Shown: piece by piece, positions 892-16,163 of the stretch | How the letters are laid out: every line of letters starts with the position of its first letter | Position numbering within the stretch: position 1 is the first letter of the stretch | DNA from: Ignavibacteria bacterium | Lineage (GTDB): Bacteria; Bacteroidota; Ignavibacteria; Ignavibacteriales; SURF-24 | Direction: 5' to 3' | Assembly: GCA_025612375.1 (NCBI GenBank) | Contig: JAAXKN010000032.1 | Location: 1-52,257, forward strand | Length of the DNA stretch: 52,257 nucleotides | The notes under the pieces: model-generated | The model's input: the letters and a program-made list of their open reading frames with translations, nothing else | Told to the model about the DNA's origin: nothing | The model's database searches: none | Position numbers and translations under genes: made by a program

Positions 892-913
892 TTTAATAGG
901 CGCAATTATCTTT

Positions 914-939
914 AGATTGTTGTATATATACTACAATCT
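914..939. promoter_or_regulatory. Palindrome 4 upstream of abiEi
   Basis: A 26-base palindrome with one mismatched pair (921/932), centred between 926 and 927, 55 bases from palindrome 3 and ending 20 bases before the antitoxin ATG. It has the core GTATATATAC with outer arm AGATTGT. Its position fits an operator overlapping the promoter or leader of abiEi. Confidence 0.75.
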
Positions 940-959
940 TTTGGATATAAATTTAATTC

Positions 960-1886
960 ATGTTAAATTCAAAACATCAATTTTCAGGAAATATAAACAG
1001 GAATGGCAGCTTGAGAAAATCACGTTTGGAAGAAGCCCAAAAGGAAATCGGAGCTGTATTTAGTGCTCTGCCCAATAAAGTTTTTAGACAAAGAGAGCTG
1101 TCGCAGATCCTATCGGCAAACCGAAGCAAATGGAAACTTGCACAGTCCACAAGCACAAGCGGTTTTCTAAAATTTCTAGTGGAAAATATGGGCTTCCATA
1201 AAGTAGTTCTGGATTTCCCTTTCAGGAAAGAAACGCGATACACCTTCGGAGAGGTATCTATATATGCTTTATTGATGGAGTTATCGCCCGCCTCGTATTT
1301 CAGCCATTATACAGCCATGTTCATTAATGAACTTACTGAACAAATACCTAAAACTATATACCTGAACTCCGAACAATATAAAAAAACGGCGAATTCGGGC
1401 TATCTTGAGCAGGATGCCATAAAACAGGCTTTCAGCAGGCCAGTAAGGGTAACAAGCAATTTTACTACTCACGAGGGCTTAAAAATATATATGTTGAACG
1501 GCAAGAATACCGATAATTTGGGCGTTATAGACATAAAAAGTGAGAATGGCGAGATACTTAGAGTAACAAATATTGAAAGGACCCTGATTGATATTACTAT
1601 ACGCCCCGTCTACTCGGGAGGAGTATTTGAAGTCCTTAAAGCCTACAAAAAAGCAGCCGGGCAGGCATCAGTAAACAAAATAATCTCCTATTTGAAAAAA
1701 ATAGATTATACTTACCCGTATCATCAGGCAATCGGCTTTTACCTTGAAAAATCCGGAGCCTACCCCGAATCTTCCATAGAATTAATCCGAAAACTGGAAA
1801 TTGAATATGACTTCTATTTAACCCACAATATGGAAGAAACAGAATACTCTGAGAGGTGGAGGCTATTTTACCCAAAGGGGTTTTAA
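960..1886 (+). CDS. abiEi: AbiEi-family antitoxin/transcriptional regulator (type IV TA)
   Basis: A 308-residue protein. Residues about 25-95 look like the winged-helix DNA-binding domain of the AbiEi family. The middle segment 'ASYFSHYTAMFINELTEQIP' and the later 'RVTNIERTLIDITIRP..SGG' match the conserved C-terminal antitoxin domain (family knowledge: AbiEi represses its own promoter and neutralises AbiEii). The start is the ATG 20 bases after palindrome 4; no Shine-Dalgarno is obvious. The 3' end overlaps that of the toxin gene, which is on the opposite strand, by 24 bases. In described AbiE systems the antitoxin gene is directly upstream of and co-transcribed with the toxin gene, so this layout is odd. 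The four palindromes upstream are the likely operators. Confidence 0.85.
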   Translation: MLNSKHQFSGNINRNGSLRKSRLEEAQKEIGAVFSALPNKVFRQRELSQILSANRSKWKLAQSTSTSGFLKFLVENMGFHKVVLDFPFRKETRYTFGEVSIYALLMELSPASYFSHYTAMFINELTEQIPKTIYLNSEQYKKTANSGYLEQDAIKQAFSRPVRVTSNFTTHEGLKIYMLNGKNTDNLGVIDIKSENGEILRVTNIERTLIDITIRPVYSGGVFEVLKAYKKAAGQASVNKIISYLKKIDYTYPYHQAIGFYLEKSGAYPESSIELIRKLEIEYDFYLTHNMEETEYSERWRLFYPKGF

Positions 1887-2744
1887 CATCTGGCATTTTT
1901 CCACAACATAGTCAAAATAAAAATCAAATTCCTTCAATTCTTCCGTTGGGAGGACTGTATCTTTGACTGACTGGAAATCCGGACGGTGGAATTCTCTGTA
2001 CTCCGATATTTTATCCATTAAATACAAAGGAACTTTCTTCGCTTCGAAAATAGCTTCTAGTAAAGCCCGATTCTTTGTAAGAGTAATATCTATATTAAGC
2101 TTTTCAATGATAATGTAAATATCATAAAAATCCCTTGCTCTTGCAGACTGACTGTTAGATTTTACAATTTTACCATATTCAGGCATTTGCTGACATATGG
2201 CTCTGATTTTCTCGCAAAGTATCATTTCGGGTGAGTACACATAAATTGTCAGACCTTCGAACTCTTTGTCTATTTTACCTTCGCAATATTCAAATTTACT
2301 TATATCTATAAGGAAGGTTTTTTTATGGTCGCTCCTTACCTCTAAAGCATGTCTGCGCAGGTTATCAGCATTATTTTTTAATTTTCCAAACTTTTCCTTT
2401 TCAATAATCTTAAATTCTACCCGATATCCGCCCCAGAAATCAGCCATATCTTCAGTAATCTGGCATGGCCGCTCATAAAAGTTGAAGTCAATTAGCTCAT
2501 AGCCATTTTCATTAAAAGTCGTGGACAAAGTCCGCACCATCTTTTCCCGTATAATTTCAAATTTATCATCAGGAATTTTATTGTCGATAGAAAAATCAAT
2601 ATCAACTGAAGAACGGCCTGCAATCTTATAGATAATGTCCAAAGCATTACCGCCCTTCAGCACAATCATATTCATCAGTTCATCATCAGAAAAAAAGGCA
2701 ACTATAGTTAATTTTTTGATTTTATTATAAAAAGCAAGATCCAT
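1863..2744 (-). CDS. abiEii: AbiEii/AbiGii-family nucleotidyltransferase toxin
   Basis: A 293-residue protein of the DNA polymerase beta-like nucleotidyltransferase fold. Motif I is seen as 'VLKGGNAL' (residues about 28-35) followed by 'GRSSVDIDFSI' (about 43-53) with the metal-binding Asp pair DID; 'EMILCEKIRAI' and 'ARARDFYDIYII' match later conserved family segments. Family knowledge: AbiEii toxins transfer nucleotides to RNA (tRNA acceptor ends for the MenT relatives) and block growth during phage infection. It converges on the antitoxin gene with a 24-base overlap of coding ends, so it must have its own promoter, probably in 2745-2976, where none of the abiEi-type palindromes occurs. The active-site motif looks intact. 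Confidence 0.88.
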   Translation of the reverse strand: MDLAFYNKIKKLTIVAFFSDDELMNMIVLKGGNALDIIYKIAGRSSVDIDFSIDNKIPDDKFEIIREKMVRTLSTTFNENGYELIDFNFYERPCQITEDMADFWGGYRVEFKIIEKEKFGKLKNNADNLRRHALEVRSDHKKTFLIDISKFEYCEGKIDKEFEGLTIYVYSPEMILCEKIRAICQQMPEYGKIVKSNSQSARARDFYDIYIIIEKLNIDITLTKNRALLEAIFEAKKVPLYLMDKISEYREFHRPDFQSVKDTVLPTEELKEFDFYFDYVVEKCQMLKPLWVK

Positions 2745-2976
2745 GACTTATTGAAGATAATTATGTGAAAAACTTAGCAATTAATGTGCTTATTGTTTGC
2801 GAGGTCTAAATTAGAAAATATAATGTTAAATGTAAATCGGTAAAAAGCAGGCTGGTCCCAGCGCCAGGGAACCGGTTGGATCATTATCCCGCCCCGCCGC
2901 CCCGGGCTGTGCCCGGGGCTATCAATATGATGCCGCTGGCCGCGGCATTTTTGTGCCAAAGCTGACCGCGGCATTA
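2745..2976. other. Intergenic region with hairpin and direct repeat
   Basis: No gene is supported here. It contains a 9-base-pair GC hairpin (2899-2907 with 2911-2919, loop TGT) and two copies of GCTGRCCGCGGCATT near 2935-2949 and 2961-2975. The copies lie just behind the stop of the Ycf48-like gene (transcribed from the right). The AT-rich part at 2745-2840 must hold the toxin promoter. Confidence 0.5.
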
Positions 2977-8520: not shown

Positions 8521-10719
8521 TTATTCCTGCGCGGTTTTGCTGATTATGTAGATGCACACCTGTTTGGCGCCTTCTTCGGTGTAACGGAATTTTGTTGTTA
8601 AATTTTTCAATAAGAATGTTACATCTTCTTTAACTCTTTGATCGTATTTCCGGAACTTGTCCGTTCCGTACTCCTTGATGGCGTTTTCATAAGCCGTAAA
8701 CTTCAGGAAAGGCTCAAAAATATTTTCACGCAGGTTGTTCATGTAAATATTATAGAGCTCCTTGTAGATCGAGGTTTCTGTAATAGGCTTGTCCTCAATT
8801 ACCATCTCCTGCAGTGTAATTGTAAAGCGCGAGGCAATTTCCATCCTGAAATTCTTTCTCGACTCCATGCTTACTTTCTTCTTGAAGAGGTGCTGCTCTA
8901 TAACCTCGTAGAAAGCTTCTCCTATCTCAATTGTCTCATTTGTGTAGGGGCAGTACTGCTTTTCACCAACGTCGTAGTTGCTGGCGAATAGGTAGTTCTG
9001 CACGTCGCGGCTTACCCTTTCCTGGTTGTGGTTAAAGAGCGACTCTTTAATTTCTTCCATCACGTTATAGTCGTATAGCCTGATAATGGACTCAATGAAG
9101 CCGTCGGGAATAATATCGTTTCTTTCCACGTGCTTTAAGAAGAAGTTCTTCACGTCTTCCATTGTAATGAGCTTTTCTGCGCCCGATCCGTTACGCGACA
9201 TCTTGCGGTAGGCCGTGTAGAAGTCGTTAAAGATATTTATGGACTCGCGACCTGAAAATCCGTCGCGTCCTTCTTTTTCACTTTCGCTGAAAAGTTTGCG
9301 CCTCATATTCCTGTCGAAGGTCTTGCGGTCCTCATCCTGCAGCCAGTTAGGTATGATGTTTGAATAAAGGCTCATTTTAAGGAGCAGGAGGTCGTCGTCG
9401 CAGTAGCGTTCGTACTTGCGCGGGTATTCAATCCATTCTCTTATGGCGTCGCTGTCGGGGTTAAGCCTTGAGGAGATAATTATCTTGGCAAAGTTCTCCA
9501 GCACTCCGGGCAGGAAGTGTTTTTCAATCTGGCCGCCAAGCGAGTGGTAATAAGTTTTAACCTCCTCGGCATAGTTCAATATGTAGTTCACGTTAATTTC
9601 AACTATGCGGTCGTGGAAAGAGTTGACGTCCTTGATCTTCTCCTTATCCTCAGGGTTCATAAGAGCGATAAAGAGCGACTTTACGTTTTCCTCCAAGTCC
9701 TCAATCTTATGCACGCCCTCGGAGATAATGCCGTGGAGGTCCATAAGGCGTTTTTCGTTATCGCCCTTAACGTCCATAAGTGCGAAGATGCCGTTATTTG
9801 TCCTGGCGTATCTTGAGTAGATATACTGCACTAGGTTGCTGTCGCGGAACATATTGCTGAGCTCTTTCTGTATAGCCTCGTTTGACAAGACGAACTTCTC
9901 CGGGTGCGGGTCGCCGGGGTTAAATACGCTTATGCCGTTACCGAGTCCGCGGTTAAAATAGTAGCGCCTTGCATAGATCATGTTAAATATGTCGGCCGGA
10001 CTTGTAAGGCGGCTTGAAAGGGCGTCATAAATTGAGCTGCAGATAGTGCACGGCTTATCTTTTAAGACCCACTCATATTCTTTCTTGTTGAATATCTTGT
10101 TTTTCTGCTCCGCGGGCAGAAGGGCTTCTAAGACCTCCATTCTGTATGCGCGGGGGATCATGAGTATCGGATGGTCGTGGCTGGGGCAGGGGATTTCGAG
10201 CACCCCGCCGGAATTTCCCGGGATATTCAGCTTTGAGCTGTCGAGCCTCCAGACGACCTCGTAGTTCTGCCCGTCTGAGGTATGGGAGTATTCCTCAAAG
10301 CGCTGGAGCAGAGTATTAAGGAAAGTGCTTTTGCCGCTTCCCGGAGGGCCCACAAAAATATAGATCTTGTTCTGCTGCGTGCCTTCGTTGTAGCTGTCGG
10401 CCAGCCTAACAAGGCGATTTGCCAGCGGGAGGTCGGAGAAAAAGGGGGCGTCGGTTTCCTCGACAAAAAGCCTGTCGCAGTTGATGGTTTTATAGTTTAT
10501 GCTTTCGGGATCGTTATTAAAATCCTCTTCCTCGCTTGTATAGTAGTATATGAGGTCGTGGAATATCTGAAAAATGTTGCGGCATATCTTATCCGGCTGC
10601 GCGCTTACTTTCTCGAGGAACTGAGTAAAAGTAATTACAGCTCCTTTTTCCTCGCGCTTAAGCTTGCGGTCCAGCAGGGCAAGTATATTTGCTACATCTT
10701 TACTTGATTTGGGTGCCAT
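8521..10719 (-). CDS. Second PrkA-like AAA+ protein
   Basis: A 732-residue protein with an N-terminal helical region, a Walker A motif GPPGSGKS (residues 124-131) and the PrkA-type ATPase layout. A cysteine cluster (CPSHDHP, then CTIC) is present, reminiscent of a metal site in PrkA relatives. It is more divergent from E. coli YeaG/PrkA than the other AAA+ protein of this operon (14100-16163). Family knowledge: PrkA proteins are AAA+ proteins reported as serine kinases or AAA+ protease-like regulators acting with YeaH and SpoVR/YcgB in starvation and stress. It is the last gene of the four-gene unit and starts 42 bases behind SpoVR. Its role next to a full PrkA is unknown; a hetero-oligomeric partner is one possibility. 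Confidence 0.8.
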   Translation of the reverse strand: MAPKSSKDVANILALLDRKLKREEKGAVITFTQFLEKVSAQPDKICRNIFQIFHDLIYYYTSEEEDFNNDPESINYKTINCDRLFVEETDAPFFSDLPLANRLVRLADSYNEGTQQNKIYIFVGPPGSGKSTFLNTLLQRFEEYSHTSDGQNYEVVWRLDSSKLNIPGNSGGVLEIPCPSHDHPILMIPRAYRMEVLEALLPAEQKNKIFNKKEYEWVLKDKPCTICSSIYDALSSRLTSPADIFNMIYARRYYFNRGLGNGISVFNPGDPHPEKFVLSNEAIQKELSNMFRDSNLVQYIYSRYARTNNGIFALMDVKGDNEKRLMDLHGIISEGVHKIEDLEENVKSLFIALMNPEDKEKIKDVNSFHDRIVEINVNYILNYAEEVKTYYHSLGGQIEKHFLPGVLENFAKIIISSRLNPDSDAIREWIEYPRKYERYCDDDLLLLKMSLYSNIIPNWLQDEDRKTFDRNMRRKLFSESEKEGRDGFSGRESINIFNDFYTAYRKMSRNGSGAEKLITMEDVKNFFLKHVERNDIIPDGFIESIIRLYDYNVMEEIKESLFNHNQERVSRDVQNYLFASNYDVGEKQYCPYTNETIEIGEAFYEVIEQHLFKKKVSMESRKNFRMEIASRFTITLQEMVIEDKPITETSIYKELYNIYMNNLRENIFEPFLKFTAYENAIKEYGTDKFRKYDQRVKEDVTFLLKNLTTKFRYTEEGAKQVCIYIISKTAQE

Positions 10720-10761
10720 TTCGTCTTAACCTTTTCAAACTCTGCTTTAAAAATTCTTCTC

Positions 10762-12381
10762 TTAAAAATTCTCTTTTGTTATCTTGCGGTCCTTCATGGT
10801 ATAGAGGACCCTGTGGAATATGGGCTTAACGTTATTTTCATCGCGTCCCGCGGCCTTGCGCATTGCCTCCTGATCCAGTTCCGTGGTCTCAAGAAAAACT
10901 CTTCCGCCCCAGAGGTATTCAAGTCCCATGAGCGTATTCGGTATATAATCGCGGTAGAGTTCCTGCCCCTCGAAGTGGTGGTGGAGGTAGAGGTCGCTGT
11001 CGTACTTCCTTTTGAAAGTAATGTACGGCGGATGATAAAGGTTATCGAAGAGCATCTCCTTATAATCCTTTGCCTTCCTGCTTTTCACGTAGTATTCCCT
11101 TGTCTGCCTCTGGTGGTTGATCCTCTGGCCCACGACCATGAGCTTATGCTTATCCACAAAATCCTGCTCAACGAAAGTGTTGAAGAAAGTAAAGTCGCAG
11201 TAGTTTTCCCTCACGTGGAATATATAGTCGCGCCCGTTCATCTTTTTGGAGTCGAAGGCTTTTCTTTCGTTAAGCGTGTTAATGCGCCTGAAGTCGTATG
11301 AGAGGCGGCCTTTGTTTGCCATCTCCTCAATATGCATAAAGAGCCTCCAGCCGATTGCATAAGGGTTAAGCCCCACCTTGCTTAAAGCTGTAACGCCCGC
11401 GTTAATTTTGGCGAAGGCAATTTCGTGACCCTTTATGCGGTCGTCATTAAGGAAGAGGTTTTCGTGCCAGAAGCTTGCCCAGCCCTCGTTCATGGTTTTA
11501 GTTCTTATCATTGGGGCAAAGTATAGCGACGTCTCGCGTACAATCTCAACAACGGACTTCATCCATTTGTTTTCTTCCTGGTTTAGTATGGGGCTTTCGC
11601 GCAGAATAAACTGCATCAGGTCCTGGTCCTTGTGTCTGGGTTTATGGTCCTTCGACTTTTCAAACAGGCTGTCGAACTCGGGGTATTTCAGTCTTATCCT
11701 GTCGAGGAATGCGGCCTCGTGCTCCGGGTCGGGCATTTCAGAATCCTTGTTATAGCGCTCTACTTCTTCCAGGAACTCGTTCATCGGGACGTTCTTAATT
11801 TCCTGCAGGAAGCGCCCGAAATAATAATCCACTTTTTCCGTGAAGCTGAACTGCTTATTGTCCTCTTCATCCTGGTAGGAATGATGGAAGCCGACGAGGT
11901 TATCGATGCCGCGGGCAAATTCAATGACGTAGTCCACCTGGCGTTTTTTCTGGGCTCTCAGGCGTGCGATGATCCTTTTGTCCGTAAGGGCCTTTTCCTT
12001 AAAGTCGTAGTCCCATGTATGCTGGAAGAACTTGTTGTTCTGAAAAAAATCTATGTGTGCCAGGACGTGGTAGAATATCATTACGTTCAGCCAGTCGGGG
12101 TTATTATTGTTATAGAAGGAGATAACCGGCCTGGTATTAATAACGGTCTCATACGGGTTATTGGGGTAGTACTCGTATTCCCCCTTGCCGCGCAGGACCT
12201 GGATATCCTGCACCCAGTAGTCGTAGAGAGTAGGTATCATATTCTTGGGGCTCAGTTCGATCATGTCTGTATTGGAGACGTAGTATTCGAGTGTTTCCTT
12301 ATCGAACTTCAGTCCCGCGGCCGCAGCGCGTTCCTTGCAGCCTTCCATAATTCTTTTAGTATGCTGGTCAATTAGTTTCAT
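10762..12381 (-). CDS. SpoVR/YcgB family protein
   Basis: A 539-residue cytoplasmic protein, close to the usual 500-520 residues. The family hallmarks are present: an N-terminal 'YDYWVQDIQVLRGKGEYEYYPNNPYETVINTRP'-type block (here broken into the visible pieces DYWVQD and YPNNPYETVINT), 'HVLAHIDFFQNN', 'RTKTMNEGWASFWHE' and 'NPYAIGWRLF'. The His/Glu-rich motifs (HVLAH, NEGWASFWHE) look like a metal-binding, zincin-like site. In Bacillus SpoVR affects spore cortex formation; in non-sporulating bacteria YcgB works with YeaG/YeaH in stress. The organism shows no sign of sporulation, so the stress role is favoured. A repeat cluster separates it from the upstream YeaH-like gene. Confidence 0.9.
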   Translation of the reverse strand: MKLIDQHTKRIMEGCKERAAAAGLKFDKETLEYYVSNTDMIELSPKNMIPTLYDYWVQDIQVLRGKGEYEYYPNNPYETVINTRPVISFYNNNNPDWLNVMIFYHVLAHIDFFQNNKFFQHTWDYDFKEKALTDKRIIARLRAQKKRQVDYVIEFARGIDNLVGFHHSYQDEEDNKQFSFTEKVDYYFGRFLQEIKNVPMNEFLEEVERYNKDSEMPDPEHEAAFLDRIRLKYPEFDSLFEKSKDHKPRHKDQDLMQFILRESPILNQEENKWMKSVVEIVRETSLYFAPMIRTKTMNEGWASFWHENLFLNDDRIKGHEIAFAKINAGVTALSKVGLNPYAIGWRLFMHIEEMANKGRLSYDFRRINTLNERKAFDSKKMNGRDYIFHVRENYCDFTFFNTFVEQDFVDKHKLMVVGQRINHQRQTREYYVKSRKAKDYKEMLFDNLYHPPYITFKRKYDSDLYLHHHFEGQELYRDYIPNTLMGLEYLWGGRVFLETTELDQEAMRKAAGRDENNVKPIFHRVLYTMKDRKITKENF

Positions 12382-12411
12382 CGTAGCTCAATTATTAATA
12401 TTTATTATCCG

Positions 12412-12672
12412 TCCGGGAATCGGGGGCTAAAGCCCCGAGGGGAGAGAGATTCCAAATCCACGGCCTCAAGGCCGTGGCTATTCAATCTGAGAAACCCTGC
12501 TAAAGCAGGCTCATATGAATATCTCACGGCTGAATATTCACGAGTTTTAGCTCGTGAAATCGATTATTTGAGCCCTCCTTGGAGGGCTTTCTCAGGCTGA
12601 ATTGCCACGAGCTTTAGCTCGTGGACACGCGATCCCCCAAAAAAATTGAAGCTTTAGCCCCAGATTATCCGG
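12412..12672. repeat. Palindromic repeat cluster inside the PrkA-YeaH-SpoVR operon
   Basis: About 260 bases between spoVR and the yeaH-like gene are packed with palindromes. In order they are family B (GGGAATCGGGGGCTAAAGCCCC, near 12417), family A with altered stem (CCACGGCC/GGCCGTGG, near 12460), family C (CCTGCTAAAGCAGG, near 12493), an A-like TTCACGAG/CTCGTGAA, a hairpin AGCCCTCC/GGAGGGCT, an inverted family A (GCCACGAGCTTTAGCTCGTGG) and an inverted family B end. The block would be transcribed as a highly structured intercistronic RNA. Confidence 0.8.
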
Positions 12673-12674
12673 GT

Positions 12675-14039
12675 CTATGCAATCAAATGTTTAATGCTCT
12701 GAATTATGCGCTCCTCGTCGGCGTCGGCGGCTTTCATGCTGTCGAGCCTCAGCTTGTCGGGATATGTTTCAAGCAGTTTTGAATTTCTTATGTACTGCTC
12801 GACAAATGTGTTACTATAGTCGCTTATGCCTGCGGCAATGGTAATGCCTATGCGGCTTGCATAGGAGAGCATTTTTTCAAGTTCCTGAAGAGCCTTGTTG
12901 CCGCGGGCATCCCAGTCGTCGCCGTCGGTGCCGTGGAAGATGTAGATGTTATAATCCTTTGCGAGGTTCTCCTCTTCCACAATTTTATTAACGAGTGTGA
13001 ATGCGCTTGCAACGTCGGTTCCGCCTGCAACCTGTTTGTTGAAGTATGTATAAAAATCGGGTACTTCCTCGGCGTCCGTATCGTGCAGAATAAATCTCGT
13101 TTTAACCTGCCTCTGGTACTGGTATACAAGCCAGCTGTTTATATATATGTGCTGCGTTGCAACAACTTCAGTAGGCTTGCCGGTCATACTTCCCGAATAG
13201 TCGCGCACAAAAAATACGAGTGCCTGCGACTCATAGTCTTTTTCCCTCGAGAGCGTGCGGTAGACGCGGTCGGCGGGAGAAATAAGAATCTTTGATGAGT
13301 CTACAGGTTCATCTCCCGATATATTGCCTAAAGCGAGGTTTGTCTTTATTACTCTTTTAAGCGTAGCCTTCTTATCCAGTATCTGTCCCTGGCCGCGGTT
13401 TTTATCCGTCATATCATAGGTAAACTTGGTAAGGGAAGTTTTCTTTCCTTTTTCCTTGATGTTCGGGAGTTCGAACTGTTCAGTTAAGATGCGTCCAATG
13501 TCGTATGCATCGGCGCCCATTCCATGCTGCCCGCCTTTACCCTGTCCGGCACCCTGTCCACTTCCGTCTTCGGGGCGGAGCGGTTCTTCACCAATTACCT
13601 CGCCTTCTTCTCCGTCGCCCGTGCCTCCGGTACCCTCTCCCTGTCCCTGCTGCTGATCGCCTTTCCAGTGGTAGAGTTTTTCTTCGGATATGGTAGGGAT
13701 AATAATGGTTTTATCGTTACCACCTTTAATGGGTTTAACGAGTTTGCCTAGTTTAACTTTCCTCGGGAATCCGTCCTTATCGCGCTGCTTGTCGCGTTCA
13801 AGGAGTTTATCCAGAGCGTGGAGCCTTGCCTGCTGGCCGGCATTCATATTCATGCGGAAGAGGTCGCGGTCGTCGAAGTAGTCGTAGAAAGTGCGTTTTT
13901 CCACGTAGACGCCCTTCGGGGCGTCGTCCGTAAACTCATGGCGTCCTGAAAAGGCCATCTCGGTATTAATCAGCTTTATCTGGCTTTCAGTAAGTCCCTG
14001 CCGTCTTAAATATTCTATCAGTTCTTTAGTATTGCTCAT
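12675..14039 (-). CDS. YeaH-like (DUF444/UPF0229) VWA-domain protein
   Basis: A 454-residue protein. Residues about 126-176 form a Gly/Gln/Glu-rich, probably disordered linker; the von Willebrand A domain follows, with the MIDAS motif DYSGS (Asp280, Ser282, Ser284) and the later GGTDVASA carrying the conserved Thr-Asp. Family knowledge: E. coli YeaH is co-transcribed with the PrkA homologue YeaG and forms part of the same stress pathway. Here it lies 60 bases behind the first PrkA gene, with a stable hairpin in the gap. Cytoplasmic; no signal peptide. The length is slightly above the family's usual 420-430 residues, mainly because of the linker. Confidence 0.9.
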   Translation of the reverse strand: MSNTKELIEYLRRQGLTESQIKLINTEMAFSGRHEFTDDAPKGVYVEKRTFYDYFDDRDLFRMNMNAGQQARLHALDKLLERDKQRDKDGFPRKVKLGKLVKPIKGGNDKTIIIPTISEEKLYHWKGDQQQGQGEGTGGTGDGEEGEVIGEEPLRPEDGSGQGAGQGKGGQHGMGADAYDIGRILTEQFELPNIKEKGKKTSLTKFTYDMTDKNRGQGQILDKKATLKRVIKTNLALGNISGDEPVDSSKILISPADRVYRTLSREKDYESQALVFFVRDYSGSMTGKPTEVVATQHIYINSWLVYQYQRQVKTRFILHDTDAEEVPDFYTYFNKQVAGGTDVASAFTLVNKIVEEENLAKDYNIYIFHGTDGDDWDARGNKALQELEKMLSYASRIGITIAAGISDYSNTFVEQYIRNSKLLETYPDKLRLDSMKAADADEERIIQSIKHLIA

Positions 14040-14059
14040 TTTGTCGATTCAAATTTATG

Positions 14060-14083
14060 GCGGCAGGTTTTGATGCCTGCCGC
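14060..14083 (-). other. Intercistronic hairpin between prkA and yeaH-like genes
   Basis: A perfect 8-base-pair stem GCGGCAGG/CCTGCCGC with an 8-base loop. It lacks a following T-run on the minus strand, so read-through is expected. It may stabilise or process the upstream message. Confidence 0.6.
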
Positions 14084-14099
14084 ACAGATTTCACTTTTT

Positions 14100-16163
14100 T
14101 CAGGTCTGGTGGTCCTGCGTGCAGAAGAACTCAATTGTTTTCTGTGCGCATGTATGGCAGTAGCCGAGCTTGTTAGTCATGGTGGTAACGATCCTGTTAT
14201 AGAGTCTTTCGTTATCCTCGTTGGTCCTGTTAGCAAGGGCGCCAACGAGTCCTCCGGCTGAAGCTATATCGGAATTAAGCCTTGTATCTGTAACAGCCTT
14301 CACGAGGTCCACGTTATCCATAAAGTCATAATTCTTATCTGTCTGGAGCCTCTGCGCGTAGATCTTTCTTATCTGTCCGCGGAAGGATTCCTTCTGCTCG
14401 CGCGTTTTCATCTCGAGCTCATTTTCCACCGCGTTAACGAAGCGTTCGTCAATTTTAATCGGCTGCATCTTGTTTGTCTGCGGGTCGCGGTAAGTAATAA
14501 TTTTATCAGAACCCAGGTCGCTTCTACCCATGCCGACGATCATATTAACGTACATGAGCACGTCTTTTTTAATTGCGGCAGGTTCATCCATAAACGCGTT
14601 GAACATTTCAGTTCTTATGCGTTTGCGGTAGAGGCCCCGCGCAATTTTAAGATCCTCAAAGTACTTCTGGCGTTCGTTGGTATCCTGAATATAATCCAGG
14701 ATTACTTCCTCGGTAGCCTTGAAGGCGTCCTCGCCAAACATGCAGCGGCCTTCGTTGGTCTCGGAGTAGCCGCGCTGTGTATTTATAATTCTTGCAAGGT
14801 CTCTTTGTCCCAGGCCTTTCTGTCCGAAGCGTTTTGTAATATCGGATTCATGTTCAAGCTCTTCAACAATTTCAGCGAGGGCTTTAATGCTTTTTTCGCC
14901 GGCCACTTCGCCCGCGGCAAGCTTCATCATTTCAACCGGGGTCAGTTTGTCCTCTGCTCTCGGCAGTCGGCTTAAAGTAACGCCAGTTGACATAACATAA
15001 ATAAGGTTCGGATCCATGTGCAGCTTTTCGCCCGAGAATGTGGTCTTCTCGCTTGAGCCGAGTGCGTACTTTGTCAGCTGCTGCTGGAGTTTATAGTCGG
15101 TGTTATGAGCAACATAGCAGAACTTGCAGCGGTCTATGATAGGCTTTTCCTCGCCGTTAGCCCTGTAGTTCTGGACGTCGGCGTTGTTGCTTGTGGCAAT
15201 AATAAAAGTATCAATCGGCCATTTGAAGGCGTCAATTTCAATAACGCGGTTCTGCACAACGCCTAAGTAGATCTTCATAAGATCTGTTTTATTCTTAAAG
15301 ATCTCATCGGCAAAGTGGATGCCGCCTCCGCCCACGCGTGCCAGGGCGCCGCGCCTTAAGTCGAAGCGGTAGGGGTTGTTGGTGTTTGTAATGTGCAGAA
15401 GCCTCTGAATGCTTTCTTCACCCACGAGGTCGACGCCCGAGCTGGTGATCTTATCCTTTGCAGGATACTTGCCTGTAATGGTGCCCATAGTTTCGCTGAT
15501 AGGCACTTTAACTATATCTATGCATTCTTTAACCCTGTCCAGGTCCTCGTCGAAATAGGTTTTAAGGTCGTTCAGTATAAATTCGCTATCGGCGCCTAAG
15601 GGGCGGTAATTTCTGTAGAAATCTTCAACTTCCGCGGTTGTAAAGCCCCGGCTTAATAAAGTCTCCTTATTATCATCTTTACACGTAAAAAGATTCATAG
15701 CGAGGATCATAGGGTCCTCGTATGTCTGGGATTCAATTGTGTGGAGGTTTCCGTATCCTTCCATATCCTTAGGGATTTTGAAGCGGAAGGTATAGCGGTT
15801 ATTTTCCGGGATGCTCACAAAATCGCGGTACATGGCGGATAAATAGTCCACGAAATAAGTTTTGCCGTTTCCCGGTTCACCGGCCAGTACGAAAGCCATT
15901 TCCTTGCTTTCGCCGTCCTCGGCCGCATCCTTAATAAAGGCTACGAATTTATTAAGGACATCGAACATACCTATAATATGTTTTTTGCCCGTTCTGAATT
16001 TCATGAAGTCGTATGTATTTTTTCCATTTACGACTATGGGCTGGATATGTTTAGGATCATCAAACAGCATTCTGGCAATAGATTCAAAAACATTTTCAAA
16101 CCTATGCTGTCCCCTCTTTAATTCATCCAAGTACAAATCCAGGCTTTGAACATGTGCCCGCAT
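14100..16163 (-). CDS. prkA: PrkA-family AAA+ protein (YeaG-like)
   Basis: A 687-residue protein with the PrkA arrangement: N-terminal 'LDELKRGQHRFENVFESIARML', Walker A GEPGNGKT (residues 95-102), a later 'RGALARVGGGGIHFADEIFK' Walker B-type block (ADE) and 'ATSNNADVQNYRANGEEKPIIDRC' sensor-like block, then a C-terminal helical kinase-like region ending in a Cys pair (CHTC). Family knowledge: E. coli YeaG/PrkA is an AAA+ protein with reported Ser/Thr kinase activity, active under nitrogen starvation. It is the first gene of a four-gene minus-strand unit with YeaH-like, SpoVR-like and a second PrkA-like gene. E. coli YeaG is about 644 residues, so this one is slightly longer. Confidence 0.92.
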   Translation of the reverse strand: MRAHVQSLDLYLDELKRGQHRFENVFESIARMLFDDPKHIQPIVVNGKNTYDFMKFRTGKKHIIGMFDVLNKFVAFIKDAAEDGESKEMAFVLAGEPGNGKTYFVDYLSAMYRDFVSIPENNRYTFRFKIPKDMEGYGNLHTIESQTYEDPMILAMNLFTCKDDNKETLLSRGFTTAEVEDFYRNYRPLGADSEFILNDLKTYFDEDLDRVKECIDIVKVPISETMGTITGKYPAKDKITSSGVDLVGEESIQRLLHITNTNNPYRFDLRRGALARVGGGGIHFADEIFKNKTDLMKIYLGVVQNRVIEIDAFKWPIDTFIIATSNNADVQNYRANGEEKPIIDRCKFCYVAHNTDYKLQQQLTKYALGSSEKTTFSGEKLHMDPNLIYVMSTGVTLSRLPRAEDKLTPVEMMKLAAGEVAGEKSIKALAEIVEELEHESDITKRFGQKGLGQRDLARIINTQRGYSETNEGRCMFGEDAFKATEEVILDYIQDTNERQKYFEDLKIARGLYRKRIRTEMFNAFMDEPAAIKKDVLMYVNMIVGMGRSDLGSDKIITYRDPQTNKMQPIKIDERFVNAVENELEMKTREQKESFRGQIRKIYAQRLQTDKNYDFMDNVDLVKAVTDTRLNSDIASAGGLVGALANRTNEDNERLYNRIVTTMTNKLGYCHTCAQKTIEFFCTQDHQT

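Follow-up and report, generated by a model that had tools for sequence, protein, structure and literature searches.

A convergent AbiE subfamily with palindromes upstream of the antitoxin gene

Textbook accounts of toxin-antitoxin control assume that one promoter sets the levels of both proteins. How could two such proteins be balanced when their genes face each other? An AbiE-like locus of an Ignavibacteria bacterium raises this question. In the stretch of DNA analysed here (52,257 nucleotides of contig JAAXKN010000032.1, hereafter the window) an antitoxin gene and a toxin gene run tail to tail and share the ends of their coding regions (Table 1). An earlier note on this DNA had described the convergence and the 24-base overlap, and the ends of the open reading frames agree with it to the base. 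Sequence comparison finds both frames kept at 40-48% identity in other phyla, and hence abiEi and abiEii are real genes.

Table 1. Features of the abiEi/abiEii locus (positions in the window).
Feature	Position	Strand	Remarks
palindrome P1	722..751	.	30 bp, perfect
palindrome P2	791..820	.	30 bp, perfect
palindrome P3	852..891	.	40 bp, perfect
TATCTTTA	907..914	+	resembles the Bacteroidota -7 box TAnnTTTG weakly, with one mismatch; abuts P4
palindrome P4	914..939	.	26 bp, one mismatched pair; overlaps the likely abiEi transcription start
abiEi-like antitoxin/repressor gene	960..1886	+	308 aa; winged helix at the N-terminus (residues 14-98, approximately), then C-terminal antitoxin domain
overlap of both coding ends, tail to tail	1863..1886	.	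24 nt; a terminator cannot fit between abiEi and abiEii
abiEii nucleotidyltransferase toxin gene	1863..2744	-	293 aa; motifs I-IV intact
abiEii 5' flank	2745..2976	-	without abiEi-type palindrome; toxin promoter seemingly free of such sites

Identity of the two proteins

The minus-strand product belongs to the DUF1814/AbiEii nucleotidyltransferases. It matches the AbiEii Pfam family PF08843 above the cut-off (E=2e-24), and a comparison with the motifs published in PMC3985639 finds all four present, namely hGG-x15-DhD (G31 G32 ... D48 D50), R44, K179 and RDxxD (R204-D208), as the earlier note had stated. G31, G32, R44, D48, D50, K179, D205 and D208 are invariant among 24 AbiEii relatives. A search with the predicted structure returned MenT3/TglT at the top (Z 9.1 over 221 residues) and also MenT4 and JHP933.

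The plus-strand protein has no match in Pfam or NCBIfam, and its AbiEi C-terminal domain is recognised through the AbiEi models of PADLOC, which match residues 28-302 (best E=1e-20). A profile built from its relatives matches the solved AbiEi of S. agalactiae (6y8q, E=7e-4). Residues 14-98 are predicted to form an H-H-H-wing arrangement (pLDDT about 80), and this N-terminal part matches winged-helix domains in a structure search with modest scores (Z up to 6.8). The AF2 model of the C-terminal half has a pLDDT under 50 and is too poor for comparison; the absence of AbiEi itself from the list returned for this low-confidence model excludes nothing. Among solved structures, the best match for both profiles is PDB 9hlo (E=1.5e-7 for the toxin, E=7e-4 for the antitoxin), which is only remotely similar and whose chains are named AbiGI and AbiGII. 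Since many AbiE proteins have been misnamed AbiG (PMC3985639), the chain names do not speak for kinship with AbiG.

The earlier note had raised the possibility of a second abiEi nearby, and a search of the genome for another one of the same kind found none. There is one further AbiEii in the genome, on a different contig (L072:764-2286, G000:C6), where it belongs to a second AbiE pair, ordinary and codirectional, from another subfamily and with another antitoxin type. Elsewhere in the window, at 8521-16163 on the minus strand, two PrkA-type kinase genes flank SpoVR and DUF444 genes; in a stress cluster of this kind a second PrkA copy seems unusual.

Gene layout among the relatives

Published AbiE is described as bicistronic with the antitoxin gene first (PMC3985639), and the pair in the window differs, as the earlier note had said. 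The parts themselves are alike: the type IV toxin-antitoxin system AbiE of S. agalactiae (PMC3985639) has a homologous toxin with the four motifs and an antitoxin with an N-terminal winged helix followed by the AbiEi C-terminal domain. However, its genes are codirectional in one bicistronic operon with a 4-nt overlap, whereas those in the window converge. The Rv2827c-Rv2826c pair of M. tuberculosis (MenA4-MenT4 type; PMC7319586) likewise combines an AbiEi-fold antitoxin, more than one set of promoter repeats and a related toxin fold, but it forms an operon in which the toxin is under the same regulated promoter. Neither the window nor its 18 convergent and 7 divergent relatives in the clade have the bicistronic, antitoxin-first arrangement with a shared promoter by which AbiE is defined. 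We therefore file the pair as a variant that probably acts as AbiE does, and not as a standard member.

The earlier note had treated the layout as a peculiarity of one locus and had called for a tabulation of gene orientation. We gathered relatives from whole genomes, plasmids and viral contigs and read the loci singly. In the clade of the window (support 100/99 in the AbiEi tree) 19 loci, the window included, are convergent and 7 divergent, two have a HipA gene, one is an orphan antitoxin and none is codirectional. The layout is thus no peculiarity: convergence is the usual state in this AbiE subfamily. The 19 convergent loci come from Bacteroidota, Bacillota, Pseudomonadota and Planctomycetota and include one contig of a viral collection; repeated in this way within one clade and across several phyla, the arrangement exceeds chance. 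Outside the clade, in the window's own phylum, 16 relatives are ordinary codirectional abiEi-abiEii pairs and two are convergent (L052 and L059). No AbiEi relative was found in phage records, and among the viral contigs one carried AbiEi and none matched the toxin profile. No additional close orthologue came from sampling the genus to which L012 belongs. A search of the open-access literature turned up no account of AbiE pairs in a convergent or divergent layout.

What is constant among the convergent loci is adjacency only. The coding ends overlap in 18 of the 19 pairs, by 4-49 nt and in every coding phase, and the genes of the Phycisphaera pair stand 8 nt apart. The toxin tree agrees with the AbiEi tree on the layout of the clade. 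The divergent loci, all from lactic-acid and related Bacillota, form a single derived group whose sister is the convergent locus of Planococcus citreus (L022), so that one inversion suffices for the switch of layout.

It is highly improbable that AbiEi is no more than a regulator, with AbiEii as a neighbour that has nothing to do with it. The antitoxin does occur without AbiEii, as the orphan L050 and beside HipA in L037 and L038, but the two are neighbours in 26 loci from several phyla, their trees broadly match through an inversion, and their classical homologues form a proven toxin-antitoxin system (PMC3985639).

These loci without AbiEii deserve a description of their own. On two Campylobacterota plasmids (L037:1020-3367 and L038:950-3283) the AbiEi-like antitoxin gene is divergent from a HipA toxin gene, with palindromes between them, which amounts to a toxin swap behind one antitoxin/repressor type. 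L050:493-2367 holds an AbiEi-like gene with two palindromes of 38-40 nt, and near it lie short, divergent frames that read, by their translations alone, as HipA-like and HipB-like.

Palindromes and the control of toxin and antitoxin

The main feature of the locus, absent from the earlier note, is a row of four palindromes of 26-40 bp upstream of abiEi. Such palindromes lie upstream of abiEi in all 27 loci first tested, and at most 1 in 300 resampled sequences scores as high; the viral contig L047 has two more. The same resampling test found significant palindromes in the abiEii 5' flank of none of the 19 convergent loci. In the divergent loci the palindromes sit in the intergenic region common to both genes. 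Since the orphan antitoxin L050 retains them, they are a property of the antitoxin. The core pattern is not spread through the genome: there is a single other exact match (in L039), among unrelated genes and without symmetric flanks. In the Bacillota loci L014, L016 and L021 the -10 box is covered by the palindrome nearest the promoter. TAnnTTTG is the consensus of the Bacteroidota promoter -7 box, and in the Bacteroidota loci L017, L019, L024 and L025 this palindrome abuts a box that matches it more strictly than that of the window. Perfect palindromes of 45 nt with a one-base centre also stand just 5' of abiEi in two distant AbiE pairs, the convergent L052:1276-3011 and the codirectional L062:1378-3181, so very long dyads occur beyond the window's clade.

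The AbiEi of S. agalactiae binds paired inverted repeats of 23 bp, separated by 3 bp, and so represses its own promoter, and Rv2827c uses two repeat pairs (PMC3985639, PMC7319586). From this known binding and from the position of the palindromes at the abiEi promoter we infer that in the convergent loci AbiEi represses itself and not the toxin. The reading that we prefer, with a probability of about 0.7, is that in the convergent AbiE subfamily AbiEi is both antitoxin and repressor of its own gene, and that AbiEii comes from a separate promoter free of such sites and is held by the AbiEi protein. Each palindrome would be bound by two AbiEi monomers, and through P4, which overlaps the likely transcription start, AbiEi may hold its own level steady. 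AbiEii, a MenT/TglT-like nucleotidyltransferase, would be made independently of these sites and restrained at the protein level. A drop in AbiEi, by loss of the element or by phage shut-off of host gene expression, would derepress the antitoxin gene only; with the abiEi gene gone, the toxin would act. Toxin and antitoxin thus appear, from the distribution of the sites, to be under separate control. The earlier note had held that the usual autoregulation cannot control the toxin directly. This probably holds for the toxin, whose 5' flank has no palindromes and which would be out of reach; autoregulation as such is not lost, as four candidate operators stand at the antitoxin promoter.

Three points weigh against parts of the preferred reading. 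The inverted repeats of S. agalactiae also overlap the abiEi promoter, but the geometry differs: there is one pair of 23-bp repeats with a 3-bp spacer, whereas the subfamily of the window has up to four spacer-less 28-bp sites and none at the toxin. The repeats of Rv2827c-Rv2826c, 23 bp with a 13-bp gap, differ as well. Secondly, the outer arms are not common to the sites of one locus, which is unexpected for a plain sequence-specific repressor. As to a separate toxin promoter, several plasmids have another gene closely 5' of the toxin, and its promoter might serve.

The overlap of the genes suggests a different kind of control, proposed in the earlier note, in which the abiEi transcript runs into abiEii and the reverse, so that antisense transcription or transcriptional interference lowers toxin expression. 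The overlap in nearly all convergent loci of the core set leaves a terminator no room between the genes, and a search found no terminator-like site on the minus strand between 600 and 3100 and, just past abiEi, a single weak one on the plus strand. However, length and phase of the overlap vary among the loci, and compact convergent genes often occur without such control. In the derived divergent clade the genes do not overlap, and the sites are common to toxin and antitoxin instead; antisense control is therefore not required across the family. We consider it unlikely as the main control.

Symmetry of the palindrome arms and what the layouts mean

Autorepression by AbiEi, as preferred here, leaves a puzzle in the sites themselves. 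Over 59 sites the symmetry extends for 14 bp in each arm, 28 bp in all, and then ends sharply. It holds at positions 8-12, counted from the centre, in 93-100% of the sites, yet different sites within a locus agree there in only 43-72%. Adjacent sites within loci, compared over arm positions 2-13, differ by 90 paired changes, 9 one-sided changes and 3 broken in both, where the paired changes come from 11 loci and sites are not independent across related loci. Transversions make up 57 of the 90 paired changes. The core GTATATATAC is conserved in sequence at most loci. When sites were found by the 10-bp core alone, and hence without bias towards symmetry (42 sites in 19 loci), positions 8-13 were symmetric in 98%; shuffling of the arms within loci gave a mean of 80% and never reached 98% in 2000 shuffles. 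Judged by these comparisons, the outer arms are self-complementary though they differ within a locus, and ordinary sequence-specific binding does not explain this, as a repressor that reads bases should preserve sequence and not symmetry alone.

Structural recognition or arm-to-arm copying by template switching could each explain the symmetry. If the palindromes were recognised partly as structure, as cruciform or hairpin DNA, the arms would be free to change jointly, and the excess of paired over one-sided changes, the symmetry well above that of shuffled arms and the sharp boundary all fit this. Such a structure would be of DNA rather than RNA, with only 1 of 16 asymmetric pairs being G/T. 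An RNA hairpin is out, given this shortage of G/T and the position of the distal sites upstream of the apparent promoter. Against DNA structure, the core is conserved as sequence, published AbiEi binds ordinary duplex probes and no known AbiEi is structure-specific; we regard such recognition as quite unlikely. It is more doubtful still that AbiEi senses the self-pairing of the palindromes as cruciform or hairpin, in which case antitoxin expression would follow supercoiling or the entry of single-stranded plasmid, and the convergent toxin would be constitutive.

The symmetry may also be mutational in origin. Quasi-palindrome correction is an established process: template switching between the arms as the DNA replicates turns one of them into a copy of its partner, and selection would then be needed on the core only. 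The many transversions among the paired changes, which are less easily made by single-step compensation, agree with this; the sharp boundary at 14 bp does not. In a decayed S. suis locus (L031:1230-3391) both genes are split and both palindromes are broken on one side only, as if symmetry needed selection. This single locus leans towards selection on symmetry, for which it may offer a natural control, and we hold the mutational origin to be possible without favouring it.

Taken as a family, these loci are widespread, largely plasmid-borne and convergent, with apparent autorepression sites that serve the antitoxin alone, and in one derived branch a gene inversion put the same sites between both genes. 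The covarying arms of the palindromes raise the question of how a repressor could require symmetry and yet leave the sequence free. Together the layouts offer a natural experiment in which one can ask if a toxin and its antitoxin have to be controlled jointly.
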